From positions 124,001 to 188,000 of the forward strand of contig JABACD010000003.1 of NCBI GenBank assembly GCA_014237855.1: 64,000 bases of DNA, in the 5' to 3' direction. Shown here piece by piece: positions 7,514 through 62,285 of the stretch. This DNA comes from Planctomycetota bacterium (GTDB lineage: Bacteria > Planctomycetota > UBA1135 > GCA-002686595). The position numbers and the translations under genes were made by a program. Under the pieces are notes generated by a model, which did not search any database, was not told the DNA's origin, and was given only the letters and a program-made list of their open reading frames with translations. Positions within the stretch are counted from its first letter, which is position 1. Every line of letters begins with the position of its first letter.

Positions 7514-9169
7514 ATGCGCCACCTGACCCTCAACGCTGCCGCTCTATTCCCCTTGCTGGCCCCTCTGCTGGGGGCTCAGGGCTCGGACAGTCTCGTCTAC
7601 TACGACTGGGTCGATGAGCTCGGGGTCCTGCGCGGCGGCCACACCTGGGTGACCACGGGTGCGATGAATGGACTGCCCCCTGTTCCTGCTAGCCAGGTAA
7701 GTACGCTGGCCCTCTCGAGCGGAGGTCCGAGCGAAAACCGTGTGGACCTCGTGTTCGTTGGGGATGGTTACACGGCCTCCGAGCTAGGTAGTTTTCAGAA
7801 CCACGTCGACTCGCAGTCAGCCGCCTTCTTCCAGATGGAGCCCTTCAAGCGGTATGAGTCCTACTTCAACGTGCACCGAGTTGATGTGATCTCGAATGAC
7901 TCTGGCGTTGACAACGACCCGACCCAGGGGATCACTCGAGACACTGCACTCGACATGGCCTTTTGGTGCAGCAACATCGAGCGTCTGCTGTGCGTGAATG
8001 TCGGCAAGGCCTACAGCTTTGCCAACCAGGCGCCTGACGTGGACTACGTCGTGGCCGTTGCCAACTCGAGCAAGTATGGAGGAGCTGGATACCCCACGAA
8101 TAACCTGGGTACGGTGGCGGGGGGGAACTCTTCAGCCAGTCAGGTACTGATCCACGAGCTGGGACATGCAATGGGAAACCTGGCAGATGAGTACACCTAC
8201 GGTGGACCCCAGGTCTACAGCGGCCCCGAGCCGAATGCGCCCAACTCTTCCAAGCAAGACGCGACGATGATGGCCAGCACGGGTCAGAAGTGGGCGACCT
8301 GGCTGGGGGAGAGCTTTCCGAGCTTTGACGGGCTTGTCTCGACCTTCGAGGGTTCCTCCTACAGTCAGCTCGGGGTCTATCGACCGTCGAACAATTCCTG
8401 TATGAGAAACCTGAATCGTCCCTTCAACATGCCCTCGGTCGAGTCGCTTCTGATCGAGATCTACAAGCGGGTGGACCCTATCGACGACTCCTCGAGTGAG
8501 GCGCTTCAGTATCAGGGCGATGAGGTGCTCTTCGTCACAGCGATGGACCCAGTTGGCAGTGCGAACTCGCTGGAGATTCAGTGGTTCCTCGACGATGTGC
8601 CGATCATCGGGGCAACAGGCCCTCAGCTGGATCTCTCGACTCTGTCTGTCCTTGGATCGCATGAGGTGCGGGTCGAGGTGGTTGACAGCACCACCTGGGT
8701 CCGCGACGAGTCTGCTCGCAGTGAGTGGATGACGGGGGGGCGTTCCTTCGATGTCGGCAGCTCTCCAGTTACCAGCTACTGCACGACCTCACCGAACTCG
8801 ACGGGGCTGGGCGCGGTCATGGGCTGGACTGGTTCGACGAGTGTTGTGGCCAACGACCTTCAGCTTCAGGTCGTCTCGTCCTCGCTGGGTACTCCGGGGG
8901 TCTTCTTCTACGGGCAGAACCAGGTCAGCCAGCCCTTTGGCGATGGTGTGCGTTGTGTCGGAGGAGGCATCTATCGCCTGGGGCCCATTTTTTCCGATGG
9001 CAACTTTGGCTTTGCCGAGCAGTGGCTCGACCTGACCGATCCTCCGCAGCCAGCCGGCCAGATCAACGCAGGCTCGACCTGGAATTTCCAGTTCTGGTAT
9101 CGCGACCCCCTGGCCGCGGGGTCCGGCTTCAACCTATCTGACGCGCTCAGCGCGATCTTTCTACCCTGA
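7514..9169 (+). CDS. Secreted M64-type zinc metallopeptidase with C-terminal shared module
   Basis: A 551-residue exported protein. Residues 1-21 are a signal peptide ending near 'LLGAQG'. The catalytic region has 'VDLVFVGDGYT' (about residue 75) and the zinc motif HELGHAMGNLADEY, with His214, Glu215 and His218; this combination of 'GDGYT' with HExxHxxxxLADEY is typical of the M64 (IgA peptidase) family. A middle stretch (about 315-410) looks like an Ig-type beta domain. The last 130 residues (from residue 422) are a beta-rich module also found at the ends of the matrixin (33395) and subtilase (59727) of this window. Probably acts outside the cytoplasm on proteins; substrate unknown. ATG at 7514 is the only start consistent with the signal peptide. 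Confidence 0.85.
   Translation: MRHLTLNAAALFPLLAPLLGAQGSDSLVYYDWVDELGVLRGGHTWVTTGAMNGLPPVPASQVSTLALSSGGPSENRVDLVFVGDGYTASELGSFQNHVDSQSAAFFQMEPFKRYESYFNVHRVDVISNDSGVDNDPTQGITRDTALDMAFWCSNIERLLCVNVGKAYSFANQAPDVDYVVAVANSSKYGGAGYPTNNLGTVAGGNSSASQVLIHELGHAMGNLADEYTYGGPQVYSGPEPNAPNSSKQDATMMASTGQKWATWLGESFPSFDGLVSTFEGSSYSQLGVYRPSNNSCMRNLNRPFNMPSVESLLIEIYKRVDPIDDSSSEALQYQGDEVLFVTAMDPVGSANSLEIQWFLDDVPIIGATGPQLDLSTLSVLGSHEVRVEVVDSTTWVRDESARSEWMTGGRSFDVGSSPVTSYCTTSPNSTGLGAVMGWTGSTSVVANDLQLQVVSSSLGTPGVFFYGQNQVSQPFGDGVRCVGGGIYRLGPIFSDGNFGFAEQWLDLTDPPQPAGQINAGSTWNFQFWYRDPLAAGSGFNLSDALSAIFLP
8777..9166 (+). other. C-terminal secretome module, copy 1 (on M64 protease)
   Basis: 130-residue C-terminal segment beginning 'SYCTTSPNSTG' and containing 'FYGQ', 'QPFGDG' and 'FWYRDP', and ending 'LSDAL.AIFLP'. 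It lines up with the ends of two other exported proteases here. Probably a beta-sandwich; role (cell-surface attachment, sorting or stability) not known to me. Confidence 0.7.
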
Positions 9170-33394: not shown

Positions 33395-34747
33395 TCACGG
33401 GCAGAAGCTCACCTTGACCGCGTTCGAGAGTCCCACTCCAAAGCTATCGCCCGGATCCACGTACCAGAGCTGGTAGTGGTGGGTCTGGCCAACCATGGCT
33501 GGGCTGATCGGCAGGGGTAGCTGAACGTCCCCGAAGAATCCGAAGACAAAGGTCTGGTCTCGGACGAACGGCCCCTTGGAGTAGAGCGTGCCACCCATGA
33601 AGGGTGTGGCTGCTTCGGTTTGGCCATGAAAGAGGATTCCGCTCGAGCTGCCATATCCGCCAAGAGTGACGAAGAGCGAGAAGTTGTCGATGGCCAGGCT
33701 AGGGGACCCGCTGAACTCCAGCAGAGAAGAGGTGCCCAGGGAGTTGACCTTGGCCGTGCCGTAGGACTCGACCAGCGGACACTCACCGAGGAGCAGGTCG
33801 GCTGGATAGGCGTTGGATAGGCGGTCACCCGTGTCTCCTGGAGTGCGGACGAGGAGGTCGCCACTGCCCGCTCCAGGCGGAATCGATAGATCGAGGCGAG
33901 TTCCAGACTGGGTGGAGGTGAGGTTCTGGACCATCACCGGGGTGCCGTCTCCTTGTCCCGCTGGGGTGAACCAGACTTGATTGCCAGAAGCGGCGAAGTT
34001 TGTCCCGTGAATCGTGAGCTGTCCTCCAAGCACATCGAAAGCGGAGATGTGTGGCTTGGCGGGCGAACGCACGCCGTAGAGCGCCTGAACTCCGGCGATG
34101 TCGTCCGCCGCCAGACTGCGCTTGTCGTAGAAGTTCCCGCTGCTACCAGGGAACATCGTGTTGTCGAGGCTGTTCGTGCTGTGGTCCAGGCCCAGTGCAT
34201 GACCGTACTCATGGGTCGCGACGCCCTGCAGGTCCTTGTGGTCGCTACCACCGGGCGGGGCGCCCGGGCCGTCGTGCCAGATGGTGGGGGCGCGGTAGAA
34301 GCGGATTCGCCAGCCGTCATTGATGGGCAGCTCGGTGAATGCCAGAACGCCACCACTGTTGCCCGTGATCTCGGAGAAGACGTTGTCGTCGGTGCCGCCG
34401 GGGTCTGGAGCAAGACCCTGGAAGGTGGAGTCGAAGTTGGCACCGCCCGAGCCGAGGTCGCCCGGCTGATGCTGGTCTCCTCCGCCATCTCTACGGGGCT
34501 CGCTGCCCCATTCTGCGACGGCTGCCCAGATGGCTCGCACGGCGCCCGTCTGGCCGGGGAAGGCCAGGCTCGGGGTCGTGTTGTCGTTCGCCTCGGGGTC
34601 GTTGAAGTTGTTGTGGACCCGGAAATCGCGCTGGCCGAGGTCGAGCATGCCTCCCAGGAAGTTGTAGGCCTTGCCGGAGCCCGAAGTGCACAGGAGGGCC
34701 CCACCCGCGAGGGCGACGCTGGGAGCCAAGAAGCTGCGAAATCTCAT
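33395..34747 (-). CDS. Secreted matrixin-type (M10A) metalloprotease with C-terminal shared module
   Basis: About 450 residues from ATG 34747, which opens a signal peptide (to about residue 25). The catalytic domain contains HEYGHALGLDH (His179, His183, His189), the M10 zinc motif, followed by a Met-turn-like 'NTMFPG' and 'SLAADDIAGVQALYG', the standard end of bacterial matrixins. An IPT/TIG-like beta domain follows ('SAFDVLGGQLTIHGTNFA', about 235-320), and the last 122 residues are the module shared with the M64 protease and the subtilase of this window. Likely exported and active outside the cytoplasm. The gene is divergent from htpG. Confidence 0.88.
   Translation of the reverse strand: MRFRSFLAPSVALAGGALLCTSGSGKAYNFLGGMLDLGQRDFRVHNNFNDPEANDNTTPSLAFPGQTGAVRAIWAAVAEWGSEPRRDGGGDQHQPGDLGSGGANFDSTFQGLAPDPGGTDDNVFSEITGNSGGVLAFTELPINDGWRIRFYRAPTIWHDGPGAPPGGSDHKDLQGVATHEYGHALGLDHSTNSLDNTMFPGSSGNFYDKRSLAADDIAGVQALYGVRSPAKPHISAFDVLGGQLTIHGTNFAASGNQVWFTPAGQGDGTPVMVQNLTSTQSGTRLDLSIPPGAGSGDLLVRTPGDTGDRLSNAYPADLLLGECPLVESYGTAKVNSLGTSSLLEFSGSPSLAIDNFSLFVTLGGYGSSSGILFHGQTEAATPFMGGTLYSKGPFVRDQTFVFGFFGDVQLPLPISPAMVGQTHHYQLWYVDPGDSFGVGLSNAVKVSFCP
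33398..33763 (-). other. C-terminal secretome module, copy 2 (on matrixin)
   Basis: 122 residues beginning 'SYGTAKVNSLG', with 'ILFHGQ', 'TPFMGGTLY', 'YQLWYVDPGD' and 'GLSNAVKVSFCP'. It aligns with the ends of the proteases at 7514 and 59727. Confidence 0.7.
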
Positions 34748-36879: not shown

Positions 36880-37504
36880 GAGCTCGGGCCGTCGAGCCCG
36901 AGTGCTTGTGGTGCTAGGCGGGGCCCGCAGGGGCGGGCTCGGTCAGCGCCTCCTTGACCTTGCGCGAGACGAGCTCTCGAGCCTCGACTGCGAGGTGCGG
37001 GTTCATGACCTGCTTGCCGATGGGTTTGACCCCGTCCTGCGTCTGGAGGATGGACAAGCCCACGCCCTGCCCTGCGATCCAGCAAGTGATGCGCTCACGG
37101 CTCGTTACCAGGAGGACGCGATCTGGTCCGAGAGCCTGGTCTTTGTCCATCCAGTCTGGTGGTTTGCACCCCCAGCGATTCTCAAGGGGTGGATTGATCG
37201 GGTCCTGGTCCATCAGGTGGCCCTGCAGCAGCAGCCCGACGGCCCTCCCATCGGGCTCTTTGGTGGCAAGAAGATGCTTGTCATCCAGACCTTCCTGACG
37301 GGGCGAGCCATCGATAGGGTCAGCTTCCTCGGTGTAACGAGCTTCTTCTGGAAGCGGGTCGTGGGCTTGCCCCTCGGAATCCAGAAGGTCACTCGGCTCG
37401 CTCTCTACGGGGTCGATAAGCTGGACGAGACCAGGCTGTCTCGTTTCGAGTCGCGGATCCGCCGTTCGCTTGGAGCACTCGTGGCTGGATCCTCGAGAGG
37501 CTGA
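36869..37504 (+). CDS. NAD(P)H dehydrogenase (quinone)-type flavodoxin-fold protein
   Basis: About 211 residues from ATG 36869. It has the KefF/NQO1 flavodoxin fold: 'VLVVLGGARRGG.GQRLLDLA' at the N terminus, 'D..W.ESLVFVHPVWWFAPPAILKGWIDRVL' (quoted in parts; about 95-125), the FMN-binding 'P.WW...PA..K.W.D' motif, and 'KKMLVIQTFLTG'. Such enzymes reduce quinones or related acceptors with NAD(P)H using a flavin and protect against oxidative damage. The start lies 11 bases inside htpG, so the gene is probably translated by coupling from that transcript; a methyltransferase follows after 7 bases. Confidence 0.85.
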   Translation: MPTESSGRRARVLVVLGGARRGGLGQRLLDLARDELSSLDCEVRVHDLLADGFDPVLRLEDGQAHALPCDPASDALTARYQEDAIWSESLVFVHPVWWFAPPAILKGWIDRVLVHQVALQQQPDGPPIGLFGGKKMLVIQTFLTGRAIDRVSFLGVTSFFWKRVVGLPLGIQKVTRLALYGVDKLDETRLSRFESRIRRSLGALVAGSSRG

Positions 37505-37511
37505 AGGTGCC

Positions 37512-38186
37512 ATGAAGATCTCCTCGCGCTTGGCTCTTGGTCTGTACCGCTCACGTCTCGTGGCCCGTCTCTTGTTCGGTGGGCCGCTGCCGGCGCTGGG
37601 TGCCGGGGATCGTTACTTTGATGTCACGACCCTGGCTCTCCGACAGCGAGTTCGGGAGCGCGTTGCTGCTGGCTCCAGGGTGCTCGAGATTGGCACCGGG
37701 AGCTTTGCGATCCTTGCGCGTTGGATGTGTCGAGAGCTCGACGCACGGGTCTGCTGTACGGAGATCGATGCCACCACAGCAGGGCGTGCAAGGGCCTGTG
37801 TCGAGCTGGAGGGCCTGGATATCGAGGTCCATGAGGGATCACTCTTCGCGAGCCTGGAGGAGTCGACCGATCTGGTGATCTTCAATCCACCTTACTTGCC
37901 GCGGGCGCTGGGCTTGGCCCGCGGACTCTCTGACCTGCATCGTCGGCAGTGGGACGGAGGTCCCGATGGCACCGCTGTCTTGCGGGAGTTCCTGGCTGCC
38001 CTGCGCGGACGGGGCGAGGGCGCCTGCGCGCTGGTGGGGCTCAACGAGCAGCACGTGAGCACACGCCGTGTACGAGACCTCGTCGAGGAGCTTGGTGGGC
38101 TCGAGCTGATGGAGAGCAGGCACCAGTCCTGGTTGCCCGGGGTTGTCCATGAGCTGCGCGTAGCAGCCTCCGCCAACTCGAGCTAG
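37512..38186 (+). CDS. Class I SAM-dependent methyltransferase (HemK-like, NPPY motif)
   Basis: 224 residues from ATG 37512. Rossmann motif I 'VLEIGTGSFAIL' (about residue 57), acidic motif II 'CCTEIDATT', and the catalytic 'IFNPPYLP' (about residue 119), which defines N-methyltransferases such as the release-factor methylase HemK/PrmC and small-molecule or RNA relatives. It lacks the N-terminal helical domain of true PrmC, so the substrate may differ. Seven bases after the flavoprotein gene. Ends on CTAG shared with the convergent carbamoyltransferase. Confidence 0.8.
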   Translation: MKISSRLALGLYRSRLVARLLFGGPLPALGAGDRYFDVTTLALRQRVRERVAAGSRVLEIGTGSFAILARWMCRELDARVCCTEIDATTAGRARACVELEGLDIEVHEGSLFASLEESTDLVIFNPPYLPRALGLARGLSDLHRRQWDGGPDGTAVLREFLAALRGRGEGACALVGLNEQHVSTRRVRDLVEELGGLELMESRHQSWLPGVVHELRVAASANSS

Positions 38187-40003
38187 TCGAGAGGTGGCTT
38201 GCGCAAGATGAAGTCGCCGATGGCAAGTACATCAAGGCCGGTGGAGTAGAAGACCCTGAGGGCATCCCGTGGGGAGCTGACGATCGGTTCTCCTGCAAAG
38301 TTGAAGGAGGTGTTGATCAGGGCGGGTAGGCCTGTGCGATCACGGAACTCACACAGCAGCTGGTGGAAGAGCGGGGTGGCTGACTCCGACACGGTCTGTG
38401 GTCGTGCACTGCCATCCACGTGAGTGGCCGCGGCGAGGTCCTTGCGTTTCTCCTCCTTGACCTGAAACGCAGTGGTCATGAAGGGAGCCTTGGTGCAGCC
38501 TTCGAAGTAGTCTGGAGCATCCTCGGCCAGAATCGAGGGGCAGAATGGACGCCAGGGTTCACGACCCTTGACGGCCAGGTTGAGCCTGTCCGACACGTTC
38601 TCGAGATAGGGTGAGGCCAGGATGGATCGTGAGCCCAGGGCTCTGGGACCGAACTCAGCTCTGCCCTGAAACCATCCCACCAGTTTTCCTCTGGCCAGTT
38701 CCTCCGCAACACTCGTGGTGATGTCGCTCGACTCGTACGCAGGAACCTTGCAGTGCTGGAAGAAGTCACGCAATTCAGCGTTGCCAAACTCCGGACCGTA
38801 ATTGACGTGTTCGAGTGGGCGTTGGATCTTGTCTCCGGCGGCTTCGGCCACGGCCATGGCTGCCCCCAGGGCACTCCCTGCGTCGTTCGAGGCGGGCTGC
38901 ACGAAGACCCCGTCGAACTCGTCCGTGCTCAGCAGGGCACCGTTGAGCTTGCAGTTCAGTCCGACACCGCCAGCGATGCACAGGTTGCGATGGCCGCCGT
39001 GCTTGTGAGCGGCACGCTTGGCCAGTTCCCTGACGACGTGTTCCAGCCTGGCCTGAACGCCCCAGGCGAGATCCACGTAGGCGGGATCCAGGTATCTTGG
39101 GGGAGGGCCTTCTGCGTTCTGGCTGTCCTCCAGGGCCGAGACCGGGGTCAGCTTGGGATCATGGCTAGTGATCAGCTTGACCAGCTTGTCGGTGAAGCGC
39201 TCGGCATGGCTGTGTACCCCAAAACGAGTGAAGGTTGGATCAACCCGATAGCCGCTATCGTCGAGGGTCAAGACGGGTTCCAGTCGTTCGACCCAGGGAT
39301 TCCCGTCAGCCCTCGCGTGGCCCAGGCCCGCGAGGCCCATCAGCTTGCCCTCGTGCCGATAGGGGAGGAAGCCAAAGTAGGCTGTGAAGGCAGCGTAGTA
39401 CCAGCCCAGTGAGTGAGGGATGGGCGTGCTCTCCATGATCTCGACCTTGCCCGCGCGTCCAACTGCAATCTGAGTGCAGATGTCCTCGCCGGAGCCGTCC
39501 AGGGTCAGGATCAGGGCCTCGTCGAAGGGTGAGGCGAAGAAGGTCGAGTAGGCGTGGCACAGGTGGTGTGGCACGAACTCGATCTTTGGCATGGCTCCCT
39601 TGATTCCTCTCTCTCGCAACCCGAGCTGAATCTCTCGCTCGAGACGGCCCGGCGTGTACTTGAGTACGTTCAGCAGGGCGCTGGAGAGAGTGGAGGAGTG
39701 GTTCAAGGAGCGGCCACCACCCGACTGTGCTCGAGAGCGATGGCGCGCATACTGGCCCGCGAGCTTCTTGAGCATCAAGAACGGATACTTGTGCGTATCC
39801 CAGGCGAAGGCAATTCGATCGACATCCCCGAGGTCGAGCTCGGCGTGCGAGAGGCAGAATTGAACGGCCCGTCCGGGGAACTGATCGGGAGAGGTCTTGA
39901 CCCTCGAGAAGCGCTCCTCTTCACAGAAGGCAACTAGCTCGCCGTCCCGAAGGAGGCAAGCGGCAGGATTCATGCCGAACCCAAAGATGCCGAGCACATT
40001 CAT
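38183..40003 (-). CDS. NodU/CmcH-family carbamoyltransferase
   Basis: 606 residues. The N-terminal ASKHA-type domain has 'CEEERFSRVKTS' near residue 30 and 'FVPHHLCHAYSTFFAS' with 'LTLDGSGED' (about 140-165), and the C-terminal domain has 'EFGPRALGSRSILASP' and 'LINTSFNFAGEPIVSSP.DAL' (about 520-585). Members transfer a carbamoyl group from carbamoyl phosphate to hydroxyls of sugars, antibiotics or Nod factors. The neighbouring glycosyltransferase 107 bases upstream on the same strand suggests modification of a glycan or glycolipid. Stop shares CTAG with the methyltransferase. Confidence 0.9.
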   Translation of the reverse strand: MNVLGIFGFGMNPAACLLRDGELVAFCEEERFSRVKTSPDQFPGRAVQFCLSHAELDLGDVDRIAFAWDTHKYPFLMLKKLAGQYARHRSRAQSGGGRSLNHSSTLSSALLNVLKYTPGRLEREIQLGLRERGIKGAMPKIEFVPHHLCHAYSTFFASPFDEALILTLDGSGEDICTQIAVGRAGKVEIMESTPIPHSLGWYYAAFTAYFGFLPYRHEGKLMGLAGLGHARADGNPWVERLEPVLTLDDSGYRVDPTFTRFGVHSHAERFTDKLVKLITSHDPKLTPVSALEDSQNAEGPPPRYLDPAYVDLAWGVQARLEHVVRELAKRAAHKHGGHRNLCIAGGVGLNCKLNGALLSTDEFDGVFVQPASNDAGSALGAAMAVAEAAGDKIQRPLEHVNYGPEFGNAELRDFFQHCKVPAYESSDITTSVAEELARGKLVGWFQGRAEFGPRALGSRSILASPYLENVSDRLNLAVKGREPWRPFCPSILAEDAPDYFEGCTKAPFMTTAFQVKEEKRKDLAAATHVDGSARPQTVSESATPLFHQLLCEFRDRTGLPALINTSFNFAGEPIVSSPRDALRVFYSTGLDVLAIGDFILRKPPLD

Positions 40004-40110
40004 GAGCTAGAGGTGGGGGCAGTTGCGGCCAATCTCCAGACCTTCGACAGTCTTGTGGTATCGACCGCTCACAAGCTTACGGTCTCCAGTCGAATCTCGC
40101 ACGGCTGCGT

Positions 40111-41367
40111 TCAGTTCCCCGCCAGTCTGTGTGCTCTCTCGTACTCTTCCAGATACTCGTCGGTCATACGAGCTATGGAAAAGTGCTCTTCCAGCCTTGC
40201 TCTTCCCAGCTTGCCAAGTCGGCTGCGCAGCTCGCGATCACGCAGAAGGTCCGCGATACAGCTTGCGAATTTCTCAATGTGGTACGGATTGGCAACGAGT
40301 CCCCACTCGCCATGCCCCACGACTTCAGGGCATCCCCCAAAGGATGTGACGACCACTGGCTTCTCGAACTCCATGGCCTCCAGGCTGAGCATCCCGAAGG
40401 TCTCGAAGCAGATCGAGGGTGAGACCATGACGTCCAGTACTCCGTAGGCGCAGAGCAGCTCATCGCCCTCCAGCCAGCCGGTGGGTACGACCAGGTCCTC
40501 GACACCGAGCGCTCTGGCGTGAGGCTCGAATCCTCGATAAGCATCCTCCCTTCCCAGGACCAACAGGCGTAGGTTTGGGAAGTCACCACGAAGGTGAGCG
40601 AGCATCTCGAAGAGCTGCTTGATGCCCTTGAGCTCGTGGAGGCGACCGCCCATTGCTATGACCTGCTTGCCCTCGAGCCCGAGGCGCGTGCGAAAGGCCT
40701 CGACCTGTGCGTTGCTCGGTAGTCTGGGCTGGAGCCGAATGGCATTGTGGATCGTGCGGTCGACTCGGATGCCATTGGCTTGCACCGCCTTTCCTAGCTC
40801 GTCCGAGACGACGGTGAAGCGGTGTACATCGTTTTCAAGCACCTTGCGAATGGCAGCGTTACGTCCCGGCCTGAAGCGGAATCGCTGGCAGGGGATGCAC
40901 TTGCGCCAGTCAGCAGCGTAGTCCTTGCGGGCCCAGTCGTGTTCCTTGCCACCGTGGAAGCAGTCGAGCTTCTGGTAGCAATAGGTCATGGAGTCGTGCG
41001 AGGTGAAGACCACGCCCGCGCCTTGCTCCCTCGCCGCGGTCAGAGAGGCGTAGGAGAGGTTGGAATGAATCAGATGGGAGTGAACCACATCAGGTTTCCA
41101 CTCCTGGAGCCGCCGCTGGACCTGGGCCACGACGCCACGATTGTTGAGTGAGACCCACGAGCGAAATCTCGGCGGGTAGCTCGAGTGGATGCGGTAGACC
41201 TCGCTACCGCCCATTTCGGCCATTCCGGCCTCCCGCCGGTCCACCGTGGTGGAGATCACGGTGGTCTCGTGGCCTCGCGAGCGCAGTTCCTCGGCCTCCT
41301 GGTACATCAGCCGGATCGAGGAACCTATCCGCGGGTCGCAGAGGTCATTGAGGAAGAGGATTCGCAT
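40111..41367 (-). CDS. GT4-family glycosyltransferase
   Basis: About 418 residues from ATG 41367 (the frame is open upstream). It has the GT-B fold: N-terminal 'RILFLNDLCDPRIGSSIRLMYQEAEELRSRGH' pattern (in parts), 'DVVHSHLIHSNLS', a cysteine-bearing segment 'CFHGGKEHDW....CIPCQRFRF' (possibly structural), and the C-terminal donor-binding 'GGRLHELKGIKQL' and 'SPSICFETFGMLSLEAMEFEKPVV', including the E-x7-E motif. GT4 enzymes use nucleotide sugars in polysaccharide or glycolipid synthesis. Followed by a carbamoyltransferase, likely in one pathway. Confidence 0.9.
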   Translation of the reverse strand: MRILFLNDLCDPRIGSSIRLMYQEAEELRSRGHETTVISTTVDRREAGMAEMGGSEVYRIHSSYPPRFRSWVSLNNRGVVAQVQRRLQEWKPDVVHSHLIHSNLSYASLTAAREQGAGVVFTSHDSMTYCYQKLDCFHGGKEHDWARKDYAADWRKCIPCQRFRFRPGRNAAIRKVLENDVHRFTVVSDELGKAVQANGIRVDRTIHNAIRLQPRLPSNAQVEAFRTRLGLEGKQVIAMGGRLHELKGIKQLFEMLAHLRGDFPNLRLLVLGREDAYRGFEPHARALGVEDLVVPTGWLEGDELLCAYGVLDVMVSPSICFETFGMLSLEAMEFEKPVVVTSFGGCPEVVGHGEWGLVANPYHIEKFASCIADLLRDRELRSRLGKLGRARLEEHFSIARMTDEYLEEYERAHRLAGN

Positions 41368-41484
41368 TACAGCGTGAGGATACACCTTGTAGGGTCGCCC
41401 GGCGTACAGCGCGGGGGATAGAATCCCACCCATTCGAGGTGCCCTCACCTCTCTTCCCTGGACCCCGACGAACTCAGGAACTGA

Positions 41485-42666
41485 ATGACGTATCTCGGAT
41501 CCATGCGCGTGCTGGCGCTGGTTATTGCCCTGCAGCAGGCCACATTTGCGCAGAGCGAAGACCCTCACGAACGTCCAAGGTCGACGGCGGCTCGTGAACT
41601 ATTTCTGGTCAACTGCGCCAGCTGTCATGGGGAGCGGGGAGACGGGGAGGGCGTGACGGACCTGGACAGGAAGGCGCGGAGCTTCAAGGAGGGAGGATTC
41701 TCCTACGGCAACACTCCGGGGACTCTGCGGCGCACCATCTCGAGTGGGATCCCAGGGACCCCCATGCCTGGCTTCGGCGGGGCATTGAAGGAGAAGCAAA
41801 TCGCCGACCTCGCCATGTATGTCCTCGAGCTGGGGCCCGGCCTTCCGCCAGAGCCCAACAACACGGAACTGGTGGTCGGGGAGCGTCCGCTGGTCGTCCG
41901 TGGAATGCTGCCGCCGATTGCCGAGGGAGCGCTGGCCCATCCGCGGGGGCTGCTGATCGGCCGGCCCGATGGCTTCAGCTTCGAGTACCGTGCAGATGAT
42001 GTCCGACTCCTTGGGGTCCGGCAGGGGCGATTCGTGGATCGGACGGACTGGATCGGACGCGGTGGGACAGCACTCAAGCCCCTAGGCAAGGTGGTTGCGC
42101 TGGTGGGGGGTGGAGATCCTGGAGCCTCCTTCTCTCGGGTTGACGAGGGCACGGCTACGCCTCTGAGAGCTGAACTGGTGAAGACCCGGATTGCTGGCCC
42201 TGGGACTGGCGCCAGGGTGTATCAGCCGGAGATTGTTTGCCACCTCTCCGCGCCGACGGGTGAAGTTGTCGCTCGTCTGGTGGAGAGGGCTTCTCCGGTC
42301 ACGCTTGGCATCGGTGCAGGCTACAAGCGGGAGTGGTACATCACGGCTCTCGCCGACTCACTGCAGCTGAAATTGAACGGCCCTGATCAGGCAGACCTCA
42401 CCTTCCTTGGGGGTGAAGCAGACGGCCTTGAGGTCATGCGCCGGAAGCTCTCCGGGATCGGCGTGGAGTACACGGTTGTTGTTCGCCGGGGCAGCCCCTC
42501 AGGAGCTGAGTGGAGCTGGGAGCAGAACGGGAAGAGTGGCATCTTCCTCAAGCGCCATGAGCACGCTGAGCTCAGTGTCTGGGTTATTCAGGTGACTGAG
42601 CAGGACTTGAGGGAGTTTGGAGAGGACCGAATCGGTCGTGAGCTCAAGGAGGCCTTCAAGTCATGA
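41485..42666 (+). CDS. Exported c-type cytochrome with large C-terminal region
   Basis: 393 residues; ATG 41485 has an AGGA five bases upstream, and a signal peptide covers about residues 7-22. One cytochrome c domain (about 34-115) carries C-A-S-C-H (Cys44, Cys47, His48) and a likely distal Met in 'GTPMPGFGG' (Met94). The remaining 275 residues are not recognised; they look beta-rich. The stop overlaps the following gene by 4 bases, encoding a sorbosone-dehydrogenase-like protein, so this cytochrome probably accepts electrons from it or a similar dehydrogenase in the periplasm. Confidence 0.8.
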   Translation: MTYLGSMRVLALVIALQQATFAQSEDPHERPRSTAARELFLVNCASCHGERGDGEGVTDLDRKARSFKEGGFSYGNTPGTLRRTISSGIPGTPMPGFGGALKEKQIADLAMYVLELGPGLPPEPNNTELVVGERPLVVRGMLPPIAEGALAHPRGLLIGRPDGFSFEYRADDVRLLGVRQGRFVDRTDWIGRGGTALKPLGKVVALVGGGDPGASFSRVDEGTATPLRAELVKTRIAGPGTGARVYQPEIVCHLSAPTGEVVARLVERASPVTLGIGAGYKREWYITALADSLQLKLNGPDQADLTFLGGEADGLEVMRRKLSGIGVEYTVVVRRGSPSGAEWSWEQNGKSGIFLKRHEHAELSVWVIQVTEQDLREFGEDRIGRELKEAFKS

Positions 42667-45323
42667 GAGAGGAACTACTTGCTCTCGTTGCTCTCGCGTG
42701 CGGAGTGCAACCGGTCGTGGCGCTTCAGTCCGAAGCCGACTACTGGACAGTCGACTACCTCACACCTCCATCCGGAGAGGTATTGGAGGTAGGAGGGATT
42801 GACTTCTTGCCTGATGGTCGGCTGATTGTCTCGACGCGCAGGGGCCAGGTCTGGATCATCGACGATCCCTTGGCGGAGGATCCAGCCGATGCCGGCTTCA
42901 CGCTCTTCGCCGAGGGGCTCTGGGAGGGCCTGGGGCTGAACGTGCACGATGGCGAGATCTTCGTGCTACAGCGAACAGAGCTCTCTCGTTTGGTCGACAT
43001 CGATGGTGACGACATCTGCGACGAGATCGAGACCATCTGCAACGACTGGGGAGTGTCCGGCAACTACCATGAATTTGCCTTTGGGTTGCCCATCGATGAC
43101 GAAGGAAACTTCTATGTCTCGTTGAACGTTTCCTTCTTCAGCCCGGAGTGGTGGCACGGGAAGTCTCCTGTGTCCTATCGTGGATGGGTGTTGAAGATCC
43201 GCCCGGATGGGCAGATGGAGCCCTTCGCGTCCGGTGTTCGTTCTCCCTGCGGCCTGGGTCTCAACAGCGAGGGGGATCTCTTCTACACGGACAACCAGGG
43301 CGACTGGATGCCGGTCTGCCCGATCTTCCACGTCAAGAAGGATGCCTTCTACGGCCATCCTGCTTCGCTCGACTGGACAGAGCAGTACCTCGAGAGCCAG
43401 ACCCTCGCTTCGGACAAGGTGCCTCCGGCTCGTCGTCGCCAGAACGCTGCATGCTGGATTCCCTACGACTGGTCGCGGTCGACCGGAAACCTGGTGATGG
43501 ATGAGACCGGAGGGAAATTCGGTCCCTTCGAGGGTCAGATGATCCTGGGTGAGGTGACCAATGGCCTGATTCTGCGCGCTCAGCTCGAGAAGGTGCGTGG
43601 CGAGTACCAGGGGGCTTGCTTCATCGTACGCAGGCAGGTGGGCTCCACCTGTCGCGTGGCCTTCGCCGAGGACGGGACGCTGTTTGCTGGCCTCACCAAT
43701 CGTGGCTGGGGTGGCATGAACCCCGCGGATGGAGTCGCAAGGGTTCGTTGGACGGGGAAGACTCCCCTGGAGATGAAGGAGGTCCACCTGCTGCAGCGCG
43801 GCTTCGAGGTGACCTTCACCCAGCCGCTCGATCCGGAAAGATTGCCTGCCCCGGAGGATCAGAAGGTCTTCGATTATGACTATGACTACTGGTGGGAGTA
43901 TGGGTCACCGGAGCGCGATCACTTCGATATCCCCGTGGAGTCGCTGTCACTCTCGGAGGATGGCCTGGTCCTGACGATGACGGTGGGGGAGCTGGCGCCG
44001 GGACGCGTCGTCAGAGCCCGGTTGTCTGGAGTTGTAGCCGCCGATGGCACGCCTCTGCTCCACGAGGAGTTCGCCTACACCATCAACCAGCTACCCGAAG
44101 GGCCCCTGAGTGAGAAGCAAGTGGTCAAGGTCGTACCTCCACCTCCGGCTCGCGAGTCCGAGGAAGCTGGATGGCTGCGGTTGACCTGGGGCGATGCCAC
44201 GGACCTGTGGGAGAGCTCCGGATGGGAGCTGGTCCATGCCGAGATCGATCCGAGTGATCAAACGCGCTTCACGACCTCGCCCGGAAACAGCGCCCTGTGC
44301 AATACCGGTGACGAGGTGCCCTCGGACTTCGTCTCCAAGGTCGAGCTGGGTGATGTGCAGCTGCGCATGGCCTTCATGCTGCCGGAAGGCTCCGACTCGG
44401 GAGTCTTCTTCCAGGGACGCTACGAGTTGCAGCTCTCGGATACTCCCGACAGGAGTGAGGCCCTTTCGACCGACTGCGGGGCCCTGTCGGGCGGCGACGA
44501 CTTCGACGGGGTTCCTCCTGAGCGTGATGGATACAGTGCTGCAGGCGTCTGGCATGACCTCGAGGTCTTCTTCAGGGCCCCTCGATTCGACTTGCAGGGG
44601 AGAAAAATCGCCAACGCTCGCTTCGAGAGGGTCAGCATTGACGATGTCGTCGTGCAGGAGAATGTGGAACTGCCGGGGCCGACACTTGGTGGCTGGAAGG
44701 GCGAGACTGCACTTGCGCCCTTGCGAATTCAGAGCACGGGGTCTCACATTGCCATCGGAAATGTGCAGGTCAAGACACTTGAGTCGGAGCGAGAGCCAGG
44801 TGCTGACAAGGGATGGGTGCCGCTCTTTGATGGAGACCTGGAGGGATGGACGACCATCGGAGATGACGCATGGACTGTCGAAGACGGCGTCATGGTCGGC
44901 AGCGGTGAGCGATCTCATCTCTTCAGCCCACGTGGAGACTACACCGACTTCGATCTACGGGCAGAGATCAAGATCAACGATGGCGGTAACTCCGGGCTCT
45001 ACTTCCGAGTGGCGCAAGGGCCTGGCTGGCCTGCGGGCTACGAGGCCCAGATCAACTCAAACTTCGCTGACCCCCAGAAGAGCGGAAGCCTCTACAACTT
45101 GAGTCCACTCCTGGTTCACCTGGTCTCTCAGGACACCTGGTTCGATTACCGCATCTCCTGTCGCACGAACGCCGCGGGCACCCGTGTTCGAATCTGGATC
45201 AACGATGTGCTCGTCAACGATTACCTTGATAGAGCTGAGACGTACAAGGCTGGGCACATTGCCCTTCAGCAGCACCACCAGGGGTCGGTAGTGGAGGTTC
45301 GAAAGCTGGAGATACGAGAGTAG
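42663..45323 (+). CDS. Sorbosone/glucose dehydrogenase-like beta-propeller with two DUF1080 domains
   Basis: 886 residues with an N-terminal signal (about 1-20). Residues about 25-370 resemble the PQQ-dependent sorbosone dehydrogenase propeller ('GGIDFLPDGRLIVSTRRGQVW', 'YHEFAFGLPIDDEGNFYVSLN', 'GVRSPCGLGLNSEGDLFYTDNQGDW' in parts). After a linker there are two DUF1080 (3-keto-disaccharide hydrolase/LamG-like) domains, at about 500-705 and 716-885; the second begins 'WVPLFDGDLEGWTTIGDDAW' and contains 'NSGLYFRVAQGPGWPAGYEAQI'. DUF1080 proteins are abundant in Planctomycetes and linked to breakdown of sugars. The start overlaps the cytochrome gene (ATGA). Probable periplasmic carbohydrate oxidation. 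Confidence 0.82.
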   Translation: MREELLALVALACGVQPVVALQSEADYWTVDYLTPPSGEVLEVGGIDFLPDGRLIVSTRRGQVWIIDDPLAEDPADAGFTLFAEGLWEGLGLNVHDGEIFVLQRTELSRLVDIDGDDICDEIETICNDWGVSGNYHEFAFGLPIDDEGNFYVSLNVSFFSPEWWHGKSPVSYRGWVLKIRPDGQMEPFASGVRSPCGLGLNSEGDLFYTDNQGDWMPVCPIFHVKKDAFYGHPASLDWTEQYLESQTLASDKVPPARRRQNAACWIPYDWSRSTGNLVMDETGGKFGPFEGQMILGEVTNGLILRAQLEKVRGEYQGACFIVRRQVGSTCRVAFAEDGTLFAGLTNRGWGGMNPADGVARVRWTGKTPLEMKEVHLLQRGFEVTFTQPLDPERLPAPEDQKVFDYDYDYWWEYGSPERDHFDIPVESLSLSEDGLVLTMTVGELAPGRVVRARLSGVVAADGTPLLHEEFAYTINQLPEGPLSEKQVVKVVPPPPARESEEAGWLRLTWGDATDLWESSGWELVHAEIDPSDQTRFTTSPGNSALCNTGDEVPSDFVSKVELGDVQLRMAFMLPEGSDSGVFFQGRYELQLSDTPDRSEALSTDCGALSGGDDFDGVPPERDGYSAAGVWHDLEVFFRAPRFDLQGRKIANARFERVSIDDVVVQENVELPGPTLGGWKGETALAPLRIQSTGSHIAIGNVQVKTLESEREPGADKGWVPLFDGDLEGWTTIGDDAWTVEDGVMVGSGERSHLFSPRGDYTDFDLRAEIKINDGGNSGLYFRVAQGPGWPAGYEAQINSNFADPQKSGSLYNLSPLLVHLVSQDTWFDYRISCRTNAAGTRVRIWINDVLVNDYLDRAETYKAGHIALQQHHQGSVVEVRKLEIRE

Positions 45324-46126
45324 ACCAGCGGGTAATCCCTGGCATCGAAGAGGGGTTGTGGCTCCCTTCGGTTCAGTGAGCTCAGTGACTCGATCCGAAC
45401 CTCGACCGGACCCTTCTCCTGGCGTTCGAGTCTCTCGGAGAGGTCGTGAGCAAATTGCAGGGCCATGTCGGGGCGGCTGCCCATACGGCTCCGTTGTTTC
45501 GAGGACAGGTACTCGTGTAGGTCGATGGTCAAGCGCCTGCCATTTCTGGCGTTGGTGATCCAGAAGCTGACCTTTCTGGTGTCCTTGTCTCTCAGCTTCA
45601 TGTGCCATGCAAGGTGATTCCCCTCCTCGGTCCAGTGGGTCCTCCGTAGCCAAAGGAGATGAGTGCCGTACCGCTCCTGAGTAGGCTTCCAATCAGGGGG
45701 ATGTCGCTACGGTCAGCAAGCCACTCGTTGAGAGGGGCTCCCTGAAGCCAGTCTGCATTCAGCCTTGCGATCCCCGCCGTGGGAGTACATCAGGCAGATC
45801 TTGAATCTCAGTAGCCACAGGGGCCAGGAAGGTAGGACGCTCGATCGGACCGCCGGATTCCTACAAGCGTCGAGAGAGCGGGCGCGGTGCCCAAACATCC
45901 AATCCCCTGGCCAGGCCTCTACTCACTCGAAGCCGAAGTGCTTGAAGTGGATGTTGCGGGTGATGTAGTGCGAGCGAATCCAGCCATTCTCGAAGTTGCG
46001 CCAGACCTCCCAGAAGAGAATGGCTCCAAAGCCGATGCGGAGGACCGCCATCGAGGCGATATCCACGGGGGCGAAGAGGAATTGCTGCCAGGGCTTGGCT
46101 GGCTGGAACTCCTTGACCCGTCCCAC
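45324..46126 (-). pseudogene. Decayed vitamin K-dependent gamma-carboxylase (HTTM) gene
   Basis: Reading the minus strand from GTG 46126, the first 67 codons match the start of HTTM/VKGC proteins: 'FAPVDIASMAVLRIGFGAILFWEV', 'NGWIRSHYI' and 'FKHFGFE' (in parts), then TGA at 45925-45923 where the family has Trp ('FGFEWV..WPG'), and the frame continues with 'EAWPGDWMF'. A stretch is missing, then 'LPSWPLWLLRFKICLMYSHGG', a one-base shift at a GGGG run, and then 'IARLNADWLQGAPLNEWLADR' (in part). After another gap and shift the C-terminal part is 'HWTEEGNHLAWHMKLRDKD', 'PDMALQFAHDL' and 'EVRIESLSSLNRREPQ'. It ends at the neighbouring gene. About 265 of the expected 450 or more codons remain. HTTM proteins carboxylate Glu residues or act as membrane enzymes; this copy cannot. 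Confidence 0.85.
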
Positions 46127-46128
46127 AC

Positions 46129-46947
46129 CTATCCCAAGGCTGCTGCTGCTCGTGCGGCTTCCTGGACACCCCGAGCGAGTACGCTTCGCAGCTTGCCGTC
46201 CTCCAGGGCCATGAGTGCTGAGATGGTACAGCCGGCGGGGGTCGTGACCTGGTCCTTCAGTTCAGCCGGGTGCTTCCCGGTCTCGAGCACCATGGTTGAT
46301 GCGCCGAGGACCATCTGTGCTGCAAGCTCGGTTGCTGTCTTACGCGGAAGTCCGACCATCACTCCTCCCTCGGCGAGAGCATCGATGATCACGTAGACGA
46401 AGGCTGGCCCTGAAGCCGAGAGTCCCGTCACAGCGTCCATGTGTTCCTCGTCGAGTGATAGGGCCCGGCCCAGGGGCTCCATGATGGACAGGGCTGTCTT
46501 CACGTCATCGGGACTGGCATGGGCTCCGGGTGACACGACGGTCATCCCCTTCTGTACCAGGCAGGGGGTATTGGGCATGGCGCGGGCCACGCGCAGGCTG
46601 CACCCAGCAGCCTCCTCCAGCTGAGCCGTGGTGACCCCGGCGCAGATGGAGAGCAGGAGCGGTCCCTGTTCGAGAGCTCCCCCCTCGGCCAGCTCACGGA
46701 CAACCTTGCAGGCAGACCTCGGCTTGACACATAACAAGATCACGTCGGCCTCCCGCGCCGCCTCGATGTTGTCGGTACTGACCGGGTAGGTCGAGTCCGC
46801 GGAGAGGCGCTCCGCACTCTCGTCGTGGCGGACAGTGGCTCGCAAGGAGGAGGGCTGGATGGCGCCTGCCTCGAGGAGTCCGTCTGCGAGGGCGCGCCCC
46901 ATGGTTCCCAGTCCCAGGATGGTGAGTTTACAGTTGTTCAGCATCAT
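46129..46947 (-). CDS. proC: Pyrroline-5-carboxylate reductase
   Basis: 272 residues, the usual length of ProC. The N terminus is a Rossmann fold with 'TILGLGTMGRALADGLL', followed by 'VILLCVKP', 'ICAGVTTAQLEEA', 'RAMPNTPCLVQKG', 'ALSLDEEHMDAVTGLSASGPAFVYVII' (in parts) and the C-terminal dimerisation helices with 'LKDQVTTPAGCTI.AL..LE'. It reduces pyrroline-5-carboxylate to proline with NAD(P)H in the cytoplasm. The start overlaps the stop of the upstream ABC transporter gene by 4 bases, so it is translated from the same transcript, a neighbourhood without obvious functional link. Confidence 0.95.
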   Translation of the reverse strand: MMLNNCKLTILGLGTMGRALADGLLEAGAIQPSSLRATVRHDESAERLSADSTYPVSTDNIEAAREADVILLCVKPRSACKVVRELAEGGALEQGPLLLSICAGVTTAQLEEAAGCSLRVARAMPNTPCLVQKGMTVVSPGAHASPDDVKTALSIMEPLGRALSLDEEHMDAVTGLSASGPAFVYVIIDALAEGGVMVGLPRKTATELAAQMVLGASTMVLETGKHPAELKDQVTTPAGCTISALMALEDGKLRSVLARGVQEAARAAAALG

Positions 46948-48764
46948 TCGGTCTCCGCGGTTGGCGTCGGTGCGGCATCACTGTACTGCAAGCGGTGCAA
47001 CTTCCAGTAGGTTCCCTTTCTTGCTAGCAGCTCCTCGTGGCTGCCTTCCTCCACGAGTCTGCCCTTGTGCATCACCAGGATGCGATCAACGTCCCGGATC
47101 GTGGAGAGCCTGTGAGCAATGATCAGGGAGGTGCGATTCTCCATGACCCGCGTCACGGCCCCCTGCAGGAGGTGCTCCATCTCGGAGTCCACATTGGAGG
47201 TGGCCTCGTCGAGGGCCAGCACCTTGGGGGCCACAGCCAGGACCCGAGCGATCGCGATCAGCTGGCGCTCCCCGGAGGACAGGTTGGCCCCCCGTTCTCT
47301 GACTGGCTCGTGGTATCCACCTGGCATGCGGCGCGTCACCCTGTCCAGGTGCAGCTCATCGGCTGCCCGGGCTGCACTCTCCACGCTGATTTGGGGGTGT
47401 CCCAGCCGGATGTTGTCGAGGATGTCACCGGCGAACAGGAAGACATCTTGAGGCACGATGCCTACCCTCCGACGCAGATCATCAAGGGCGTACTGGCGTA
47501 CATCAATGCCGTCCAGCTCGATGCTCCCTTCTTGGATGTCGTAGAGCCTCGTCAGAAGCTTGAGGATGGTCGTCTTGCCTGCACCCGTCGCACCGACGAA
47601 GGCCACACGCTCACCGGCAGCTACATCGAAGGAGAGGTTGCGAATCACGGGCAGGTCGTCCCCGTAGCCAAAGCTGACGTTCTTGAAGGAGATCACGCCG
47701 CGAGTCTGATCGGGAGCTTGCGGATTCTTGGTCTCAGGTATGTGCTCCTCCGTATCCATCAGCTTGAAGATACGATCGCTCGCTGTCATGGCATTTTGCA
47801 TGACCGTGTACTTGAGACTCAGATCGTTCAGTGGACCGAAGAAGTTGTCCATGTACTGAAGAAAGGCCACCAGGGTTCCAAGGGTGACTCCTGTGCTGAA
47901 GTGATCCTCTCCGGGGTCGATTCCAAGCCCCTCGAGTGCCAGGCCTCCGCCATACCAGAGGATCAGCCCGATTGTGATCGAGCTCAAGAGATCTGTCACT
48001 GCGGAGAGTACCGACTCCCAGGTGACGCTCTCGAGTTGCGAATCACAGAGCTCGTCATTGATCTCGTCGAACCTATCGCGGGTGCGTTTTTCGCGGCGAA
48101 ATGCCTGCACCAGTGGCATTCCGGTGGATTGCTCGTGGATGTAGGCGTTCAGAACTGATCGCTTGGTGACCATGGAGCTGTAAGCCTCTCGCACTCGGAT
48201 ACGGATCCAGAGTGTGATTGACAGCAGGACTGGGACCACGACCAGGGTCACCATGGTGAGCTTCCAGTTCATCCAGAAGAGGATCACCAGGATCCCAGCG
48301 AGATTGATCAGGTCACCCAGGATGGTCACAACGCCAGAGGCGAACATCTCGTGCAGTGACTCGATGTCCGTAGTGACACGTCCGATCAGGCGCCCGATCG
48401 GTGTGCGATCGAAGAAGGAGGCTGACAGCCCTTGCAGATGCTTGAAGACAGCCTTGCGGAGCTCGATCAGCGCATTCTGTCCGGCCAGCTCGAGGGTGTA
48501 GGTCTGCAGGGCACGGCAGATGAGCTCGCCGATGATCGCGAGCGCAACCCCTCCCAGGAGCCAACCGAAGCCGCTCATCTGGTTGGGTCCGATGTAGCCG
48601 TCGATGGCAAGCTTGAGCAGCCATGGCCTTGCCAGACCAAAGGCCGAGGTCAGGAGCAAGAGGGCAAGGGAGAGCCATAGCCAGAGCTGGTAGGGAGCTA
48701 CGAATGCCCACAGCCGTCGAATCAGCCGCGCGTCGTAGATCACTCCCTCTCGATGCTCGCTCAC
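46944..48764 (-). CDS. ABC exporter half-transporter, subunit with intact Walker B Glu
   Basis: 606 residues: six membrane segments in the first 310 residues (type IV/ABCB exporter fold) and an ATPase domain with 'VGATGAGKTTIL' (Walker A, about residue 395), 'LSSGERQLIAIAR' (signature, unusual) and 'KVLALDEATSNVD' (Walker B with catalytic Glu, about 516), and an H-loop 'LIIAHRLST'. The partner gene at 48761 has a normal signature but a degenerate Walker B. That division is diagnostic of heterodimeric exporters such as BmrCD/TmrAB. The two genes overlap by 4 bases. Likely exports drugs, lipids or peptides; substrate unknown. Confidence 0.92.
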   Translation of the reverse strand: MSEHREGVIYDARLIRRLWAFVAPYQLWLWLSLALLLLTSAFGLARPWLLKLAIDGYIGPNQMSGFGWLLGGVALAIIGELICRALQTYTLELAGQNALIELRKAVFKHLQGLSASFFDRTPIGRLIGRVTTDIESLHEMFASGVVTILGDLINLAGILVILFWMNWKLTMVTLVVVPVLLSITLWIRIRVREAYSSMVTKRSVLNAYIHEQSTGMPLVQAFRREKRTRDRFDEINDELCDSQLESVTWESVLSAVTDLLSSITIGLILWYGGGLALEGLGIDPGEDHFSTGVTLGTLVAFLQYMDNFFGPLNDLSLKYTVMQNAMTASDRIFKLMDTEEHIPETKNPQAPDQTRGVISFKNVSFGYGDDLPVIRNLSFDVAAGERVAFVGATGAGKTTILKLLTRLYDIQEGSIELDGIDVRQYALDDLRRRVGIVPQDVFLFAGDILDNIRLGHPQISVESAARAADELHLDRVTRRMPGGYHEPVRERGANLSSGERQLIAIARVLAVAPKVLALDEATSNVDSEMEHLLQGAVTRVMENRTSLIIAHRLSTIRDVDRILVMHKGRLVEEGSHEELLARKGTYWKLHRLQYSDAAPTPTAETE

Positions 48765-59726: not shown

Positions 59727-62285
59727 CTAGTCGCAATAGGTGACGGTCAAACCGTTCGAGAGCCCGGTGCCGAAGCCTGCGAGATCACCGGGGTCCCTGA
59801 ACCAGACCTGATAGGACTCCTGGTCGCCAGGGGTCCTGGCCGAGAGGTCGAGGGCCCAGGCGGCGGCTCCCAGGGGGTCGGTGGTAAGCGGCGCGCCCCG
59901 CGTCAGCGGGGCCTGGACACAGAGTGTTCCGCCCTGAAAGGGGATCGAGGCCGTGTCTGAGCCCCAGAAGAGGAGCGCGGTCTTCTGCGGTACCGCCTGC
60001 GACACGGTCACGGTGAAGCCTGTGGATGAGATCAGCGCCACGCCGGTCGAGCCGATGGCCGGCATGCTCCCGGTCGAGGTCAGTTTGGCCGTGCAGTAGG
60101 GCTCTGGTGTCGGGCATGGGAGGGCTGGATCGATGCCACTGACCACCAGGGCGAAGCTGGCGTCGAGGGCCGGGGTCGGGACGTGTCCGTCCTGGTTGAT
60201 CTCGTCTGCGAAGACCTCCACCAGCCAGGTTCCTGCCTGGGCGTTCTGGACGAAGACGTTCTCGATCACGTCGATGGTGTTCGAGACCCCCCCCGAGGTT
60301 GACCAGTTACCCGAGAGCAGGCCCTTGTTTCCCCAGTACTCGGTGGAGTCGGGTGCGGTGAGCTTGAGGCTCAGGTCGTTGATCCGGTGCTGCGAGGCAG
60401 AGGTCGTGCCGGGAGGGTCGAGGAAGACCATCGTGGCCTTGAGGGCGGATTGACCTGGGAGCACGGAAACCTGATAGCTCGCAGCTCCTCCTTCGGAGAG
60501 GAGTTCGCTCTCATCGACGATGAGCATCGAGTCGCGGTTGTCATGGAGTGTCTTCACGTCCGGGATGCCCCAACCCTGGTGGGTTCGAGAGCGGTCGTGA
60601 TTCATTCCATTGAATGGGTACTGGGTTGCTGAGTTGATCAGGAGAGCGCGCACCGTGGATGCTCTGGCGCGCCGCTCGAAGACAGTTGTTCCCACAGGGA
60701 AGTTCCCGAAGATGCCCTCTGACCACATCTGTTGAACCAGGCCTACATATCCGGCGACGCACGCTGTTGCGGCACTCGTGCAGCAGAATGATCCATCGTA
60801 GTCGGTGTCGTTCTCGTTGTCGGTTGTCCAGATCGAGTCGTACCAGAAGCAGAGGTCGGGCTTGATGCGTCCGTCAGCAGCAGGGCCAGTACTCGCACCA
60901 CCGCTCCAGCTGTCGTCATCGAGTTGGGTGGTATTGTTGTGGTACAAGGCGCCAACAGAGATGACGTTCTTCGACCAAGCCTGAGAGAGCGATGCCTGGC
61001 TACCGAAATTCCCCTGAGCCTGGATGACGGTGATGTCCATGTCGAACAGGATGTTGTCCAGCTGATTCGACGTGCTGTTGTAGATCGTGGTCTGGGAACT
61101 GCCCCAGCTGTTTGATTGAAAGACCGCGTTGTAGGGAGCCTGCAGGAGCTCGGCGGTATGGGCGTAGCGATTGGCAAGGAAGGCAAAGTCAGCGAAGATC
61201 CCCTGACCTTCCGGCAGCAGCCCCCGGGCGCTTGGCTCTCCTGTTCCGTCACCGAAGATGATCCCCGTGGTCTTGGTACCGTGATCGCTCGATCCCTGGA
61301 CCGTCCCATGAATGATCAATGGGTGATGCTGGAAGGCTGCATGTGTCTGCCGCACATTTGTGTCGAGTACCTCGCCTCGTACACCTTGCCCGGTGAATCC
61401 CTCGAGGGACTCCAGATCATTGGCTCCTCCGGCGATGCGGACCTTGTTCATGGCCGCTTCTCGAGGTGCGACTCGATCGATGAACATGACCTCGTCGAGC
61501 GCAACGACCTGCAGCAACTGACTGCGATCGAGTAGAGCTTGCAGCTGATAGCCCTCAGAGAACTGCGTGACGATCCGGCCCCCGAGTCGCTTGATCTTCA
61601 GAGCTACACGTTCCTTCTGCGCGGGCCCTGACTCGAAGACCTGGACGCTACAGTGGATCGGTGAGTCCACAGAGCTCGACTTCAATCCGCTCAGAAGCTC
61701 TCGTTCAAGGCGGTAATTGGCCTGGTACGGCCCGATCCACCGGACGAATGGCAGGGCTTTCACCTGAATCGCTGTCTCTTCATCCATCCTGACGATTCGG
61801 GTGTGCGCTGGAATGAACTGGTACACCTTGGCGCCAAGCTGCTCGAGTTCGGCCCTGAATTCTGCCAGTGGTGGGCAGACGAACTGTACGAGGTGCAGGT
61901 TCCCAGACTCAGTCAAGTCCGGACGCTTGCAATCAGGTACTTCGTCGAGGGGGTCAAAGCGACCGCCCTTGAGGTGAATTCGGTAGTCCGCTTCCCGTGA
62001 CCTCTGGAAGCCGGTCGCTGCACGCTGGACCACGTAGTGCTGTGTTCCAGGTGTGCCCTCTTTCCAGAGACCGACAAGACCATCGCCACGAGGGAATTCG
62101 ATCACTCGCAGCTGACGTACCTCAAGTTTCGTCCTGCGGATCAGGTCTCCGTCCTTGCTACGTATTTCTTGAGTTCCCTCTCGAGTCAGCAGCCGTAGAT
62201 GACCAGTGTCGGATTCAAGCGATTGCTGGCCACCGAGGGTGGCAGCAAGCCACGTGAGCGCGAGCTGGGGCAGTGAGGTCTGCAT
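59727..62285 (-). CDS. Secreted subtilase (S8) with C-terminal shared module
   Basis: About 852 residues from ATG 62285 with a signal peptide (about 1-19). The N-terminal 270 residues contain a pro-region-like 'IQVKALPFVRWIGPYQANY'. The catalytic domain has Asp308 ('EVLDTNVRQTH'), His335 ('SSDHGTKTTGI'), Asn426 ('AQGNFGS') and Ser504 in 'CTSAATACVAG', where the usual GTSMATP reads CTSAATA. A P/homoB-like beta domain follows (about 600-720; 'VFVQNAQAGTWLVEVFAD'). The last 123 residues are the C-terminal module shared with the M64 and M10 proteases of this window. Exported; substrate unknown. Confidence 0.88.
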   Translation of the reverse strand: MQTSLPQLALTWLAATLGGQQSLESDTGHLRLLTREGTQEIRSKDGDLIRRTKLEVRQLRVIEFPRGDGLVGLWKEGTPGTQHYVVQRAATGFQRSREADYRIHLKGGRFDPLDEVPDCKRPDLTESGNLHLVQFVCPPLAEFRAELEQLGAKVYQFIPAHTRIVRMDEETAIQVKALPFVRWIGPYQANYRLERELLSGLKSSSVDSPIHCSVQVFESGPAQKERVALKIKRLGGRIVTQFSEGYQLQALLDRSQLLQVVALDEVMFIDRVAPREAAMNKVRIAGGANDLESLEGFTGQGVRGEVLDTNVRQTHAAFQHHPLIIHGTVQGSSDHGTKTTGIIFGDGTGEPSARGLLPEGQGIFADFAFLANRYAHTAELLQAPYNAVFQSNSWGSSQTTIYNSTSNQLDNILFDMDITVIQAQGNFGSQASLSQAWSKNVISVGALYHNNTTQLDDDSWSGGASTGPAADGRIKPDLCFWYDSIWTTDNENDTDYDGSFCCTSAATACVAGYVGLVQQMWSEGIFGNFPVGTTVFERRARASTVRALLINSATQYPFNGMNHDRSRTHQGWGIPDVKTLHDNRDSMLIVDESELLSEGGAASYQVSVLPGQSALKATMVFLDPPGTTSASQHRINDLSLKLTAPDSTEYWGNKGLLSGNWSTSGGVSNTIDVIENVFVQNAQAGTWLVEVFADEINQDGHVPTPALDASFALVVSGIDPALPCPTPEPYCTAKLTSTGSMPAIGSTGVALISSTGFTVTVSQAVPQKTALLFWGSDTASIPFQGGTLCVQAPLTRGAPLTTDPLGAAAWALDLSARTPGDQESYQVWFRDPGDLAGFGTGLSNGLTVTYCD
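59730..60098 (-). other. C-terminal secretome module, copy 3 (on subtilase)
   Basis: 123 residues starting 'PYCTAKLTSTGS' with 'LLFWGSD', 'IPFQGGTLCV', 'YQVWFRDPGD' and 'GLSNGLTVTYCD'. It matches the ends of the proteases at 7514 and 33395. Confidence 0.7.

Follow-up and report, generated by a model that had tools for sequence, protein, structure and literature searches.

The vitamin K-dependent gamma-carboxylases (VKGC, GGCX) are characterized by two Pfam domains, HTTM (PF05090) and VKGC_lumenal_dom (PF22777). In the human enzyme the active-site base is Lys218. Excerpts of PMC9146348 name both His160 and Lys218 as essential for carboxylase activity. Pseudogenes of prokaryotes, including those left by failed horizontal transfers, are likewise well known, as passages of PMC522871 attest; at the level of titles and listings, the literature that we searched holds no VKGC pseudogene in bacteria.

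The window, by which we mean the whole stretch of 64,000 nucleotides that was analysed (G000:C46:124001-188000), belongs to a draft genome of 5.31 Mb in 111 contigs, which is 93.7% complete with an estimated contamination of 1.81%. Its minus strand carries, between 46126 and about 45341, what is left of a bacterial relative of the animal carboxylase: a VKGC gene in three collinear pieces, with both the HTTM part and the lumenal domain (Table 1). Compared with a complete VKGC, the remnant retains pieces of both domains in the same order, but they are spread over two frames, the protein lacks about 40-50% of its length, the catalytic lysine is changed and the histidine segment is deleted.

Table 1. 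Coordinates of the remnant, its neighbours and the related features discussed in the text. Positions without a locus prefix are those of the window.
Feature	Position	Strand	Basis or remark
3-keto-disaccharide hydrolase/DUF1080 + DUF7133 gene, convergent, intact	42663..45323	+	abuts 3' end of pseudogene
Pseudogene piece 3, VKGC lumenal domain	45326..45640	-	tblastn, profile matches
Deletion 2 junction, approximate, with another frame change	45640..45661	-	alignment, translation
Pseudogene piece 2, shifted frame	45640..45774	-	tblastn, human alignment, translation
Frame change at four-base homopolymer	45772..45775	-	CCCC on +, GGGG on coding strand
Pseudogene piece 1, N-terminal HTTM part	45776..46126	-	tblastn, Pfam HTTM, translation
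Deletion 1 junction, approximate	45892..45893	-	alignment; ~59 codons missing vs C58 and G017
In-frame TGA at conserved Trp column	45923..45925	-	56 W, 1 F among 57 homologues
proC (pyrroline-5-carboxylate reductase), intact, immediately upstream of pseudogene	46129..46947	-	Pfam P5CR_dimer, 129 bits
C-terminal domain found 126 times in the genome, examples in window	8750-9166, 33398-33838, 59736-60137		ends of matrixin and subtilase
Intact VKGC gene of contig C58	L006:1121-2632		504 aa
DCC1-like thiol-disulfide oxidoreductase gene	L006:2596-3087		overlaps end of C58 VKGC gene
Direct repeat of 214 bp on C58	L006:3324-3537, L006:5748-5961		copies 98% identical
Small Asp-rich protein	L006:3-608 (C58), L122:8629-9513, L119:8708-9304, L128:7007-7756		CPCGN motif
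Intact VKGC gene of G017	L042:6910-8334		nearest intact relative of remnant

In profile searches of the open frames, the lumenal domain was matched at 65.2 bits and, in the shorter frame, HTTM at 31.8 bits, each above its Pfam cut-off of 27.7; in a scan of the remnant's own genome the lumenal domain reached 87.1 bits (E 3.6e-24), and the HTTM fragments 41.3 (the N-terminal piece), 27.4 and 22.1 bits. When the intact homologue on contig C58 was used as a tblastn query against window positions 45000-46950, collinear minus-strand pieces were returned with E-values of 1e-8 to 1e-16, corresponding to query residues 17-78 (47% identity), 135-186 (38%), 173-217 (47%, in another frame) and 379-477 (40%). 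Since the HTTM profile, the lumenal-domain profile and tblastn with an intact homologue all agree, we conclude that the VKGC ancestry of the remnant is not due to chance. An initial reading of the letters alone (below, the sequence-only reading) had recognized such fragments, in order and in several frames, and these searches bear it out.

For the comparisons by column we aligned the remnant with 57 homologues. Eight of these come from relatives and the remnant's own genome, and the other 49 from a set of 80 named loci, of which 51 were chosen and two then left out, the frame read being too short; L044, which is cut by a contig end, is included.

Piece 1 begins with a GTG two nucleotides past the proC stop, encloses the TGA as well as the junction of the first deletion, and ends at the frameshift. 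The first deletion removes C58 residues 75-133, among them His118, which aligns with human His160 (human residue numbers are those of the chain raised by 31, the offset taken from the alignment with the human enzyme). The frame is then off by one base at the homopolymer; this had been described as an insertion, and the offset is indeed there, but a single sequence fits an insertion and a deletion alike. In piece 2, an arginine stands in the column of human Lys218, where lysine is found in 57 of 57 homologues, a count that is partly the product of selection, since 49 of them come from a scan with two patterns, one of which requires that lysine; the other eight come from unbiased HMM and protein scans of relatives and of this genome. 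The second deletion amounts to 115 codons measured against the VKGC of G017 and 160 against that of C58, so that the internal loss totals about 175-220 codons, and at the C-terminus of piece 3 a further 20-25 codons or so are absent.

Thus the stop in place of a conserved tryptophan, the two or more internal gaps and the truncation where the remnant meets the DUF1080 gene, all of which the sequence-only reading had reported, are present. Its extent of 45266-46126 holds at the upper end only: the lower end shifts up by about 60-75 bases, to the limit of well-supported homology at 45341, and positions 45266-45323 are the coding 3' end of the plus-strand DUF1080 gene. The latter gene is complete; residues 23-885 of 886 align with a relative at 57% identity.

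Interrupted by the TGA, two frame changes and two deletions, the remnant has no single open reading frame. Since several independent disabling lesions occur in a recognizable gene, we conclude that it is a VKGC-family pseudogene of the ordinary bacterial kind. With arginine at the Lys218 equivalent and the His160 segment deleted, it is predicted to lack carboxylase function, and no read-through should be able to restore catalysis.

It is important to ask whether these lesions could be artefacts, or could be circumvented by the cell. The frame change falls on a four-base homopolymer in a fragmented draft genome, as one would expect of sequencing or assembly errors in a truly intact gene; such errors are nevertheless a very improbable cause, given the 175-220 missing codons, the occurrence of the stop and of the lysine-to-arginine change in the catalytic column as separate events, and the intactness of both neighbouring genes. 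The TGA, in turn, occupies the position of a tryptophan codon, and might therefore be read as an amino acid, with a programmed frameshift preserving the product downstream. However, the upstream ABC-transporter gene itself terminates in a TGA, which overlaps the proC start, and the RNA fold at the TGA of the remnant is not unusual (z -0.61), which also disposes of the idea of a selenoprotein. The deletions, moreover, persist under any code and the catalytic residues are lost, so that we regard recoding as refuted, with virtually no probability left to it. A last option is that one piece is still used: the frame 45266-45601 (111 aa) is open, has an ATG and covers most of the lumenal domain with a strong match (65 bits), and might be made as a small protein. 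Its start, however, lies inside the domain and the membrane part is missing, the last part overlaps the DUF1080 gene in antisense, and such a short form is found in no relative examined; we consider this use highly unlikely.

The sequence-only reading had spoken of advanced decay. This description suits the deletions but not the substitutions: of the 32 columns in which the homologues reach 95% conservation or more, the remnant retains 29, and of the 46 at the 90% level it retains 37 (the median among the other sequences is 0.978). Its G+C content by codon position (0.57/0.46/0.76) still follows the pattern of coding sequence. In relative-rate tests against the VKGC of G017, the remnant shows more unique changes with nine of nine outgroups (for example, 40 versus 28), with p<0.05 in one of the nine; against L065, p<0.05 is reached in three of six. 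Because the conserved columns are mostly kept, the G+C pattern is gene-like and the relative-rate tests are mostly not significant, we conclude that substitution decay is moderate and that the damage was done mostly by deletion.

We placed the remnant in a FastTree phylogeny with the 57 homologues, using the columns that it covers (about 264, from a broken sequence); the deeper nodes are weak. The remnant groups with the VKGC of the family member G017 (support 0.92), and these two with L065, a Planctomycetota assembly (0.96). The VKGC of G017, its nearest intact relative, is 50% identical over 264 columns and lies in a different gene neighbourhood; the only match shared with the window is a partial one to hsp90, about 6 kb away and in the other orientation, which we take as chance. 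Nor is there a conserved neighbourhood between the window and the 80 named VKGC loci, near which the window's neighbouring genes match only ABC-transporter or PPDK genes, at 26-44% identity, and one piece of 14 residues. Across 41 genomes, this one included, the lumenal domain occurs in seven and HTTM in 14; the family is patchily distributed in this bacterial family.

In the window, two ABC-transporter genes and then proC precede the remnant. We found proC matches in 13 other genomes and compared 11 of these loci, leaving out the two weakest (G010 and G037). A VKGC gene beside proC is absent from all 11; a weak match at the locus L052 (E 0.083, 29%) was judged spurious. In G012, proC and a DUF1080 gene are likewise convergent neighbours, 43 bp apart. 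In G001, which is of the same genus, the segment between a glycosyltransferase gene and the second ABC gene is absent, proC included, and proC was not found elsewhere in that genome. When its locus (L060) was compared with window positions 37470-46947, the neighbours on either side proved conserved, but between them nothing matched the genes for the methyltransferase, the carbamoyltransferase and cytochrome c, the DUF1080 gene or proC. G001, the only other genome of the genus compared and 88% complete, has no VKGC, nor any match to the remnant.

From the decayed gene it had been supposed that the lineage is losing the enzyme. Contig C58 of the same assembly, however, carries an intact VKGC that matches HTTM at 305 bits and the lumenal domain at 143 bits, and that can be aligned with the human enzyme in each of these two parts. 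It belongs to the same family as the remnant, but is only 40% identical to it over 261 columns and groups elsewhere in the tree, with L119, L122 and L128 (support 0.96); this low identity and different position indicate that the two are distinct genes. A second HTTM protein, on contig C41, has no lumenal-domain match and resembles the remnant only at chance level.

C58 is a contig of 6.3 kb, and its membership in the genome must be weighed. Its first frame bears a C-terminal domain of which this genome has 126 occurrences, and its GC3 of 0.726 is in keeping with the 0.71-0.80 of six window genes; on these grounds C58 seems to belong here. A binning error is possible, since it lies at a tetranucleotide distance of 0.205 from the window, within which the largest value is 0.156 (C41 lies at 0.171). 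If C58 were a contaminant, the whole lineage might after all be losing vitamin K-dependent carboxylase chemistry. The absence of VKGC from G001, the scarcity of lumenal domains among the 41 genomes, the lack of any VKOR homologue found in this genome and the slightly deviating composition of C58 would fit such a loss; yet we consider it unlikely in view of the repeated C-terminal domain and the GC3 value. Thus, because a distinct intact VKGC is present on C58, the genome has lost one of two VKGC genes, and not the enzyme family.

We are confident that a VKGC of the G017 subgroup, once the fourth gene of this run, following proC, has been pseudogenized, and was dispensable in a genome that still holds an intact VKGC on C58. 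The run was a tightly packed one of ABC, ABC, proC and VKGC genes, the last encoding a membrane protein. Given that proC stands without a VKGC neighbour in every relative examined, the gene probably arrived at this site in the present lineage; a gain followed by decay is the simplest reading, with horizontal transfer as the presumed route, although G012 could instead have lost the gene. It has been inactivated by the nonsense change, the one-base frameshift, the two internal deletions and the 3' truncation, perhaps being dispensable through redundancy with the copy on C58. In its stop, frameshift, deletions and absence from this place in relatives, the remnant resembles the ordinary prokaryotic pseudogenes and failed transfers treated in passages of PMC522871, though here the transfer itself is presumed; nothing notable sets it apart from them. 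Taken alone, the remnant matters little, as one more pseudogene. It does illustrate that the presence or absence of a VKGC gene cannot be equated with that of a pathway unless a second copy has been looked for, and the intact copy on C58 is the more useful object for studying the role of VKGC in bacteria.

Next to the intact C58-type VKGC, and next to each of the three VKGCs closest to it, lies a small, Asp-rich and apparently secreted protein. These proteins share a C-terminal domain, 41-46% identical, which is common in this genome, and it is Asp and not Glu that abounds in their acidic stretches; as L119, L122 and L128 are closely related, the pairing amounts to about two independent cases. 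It is conceivable that one subgroup was exchanged for another, that is, that the proC-linked VKGC died while the C58 type stayed, with the paired acidic protein as its partner or substrate, but we regard this as a long shot. The C-terminal domain that recurs throughout the genome is about 130-160 residues long and may serve for sorting or anchoring; in the C58 protein, where it was compared with Pfam, it matched no entry.

The DCC1-like gene that overlaps the end of the C58 VKGC has relatives about 1 kb or less downstream of VKGC genes in four named loci (L112, L116, L129 and L135). The direct repeats on C58 flank a frame of 642 aa of unknown family, and part of the region also matches contig C18 at 84%.
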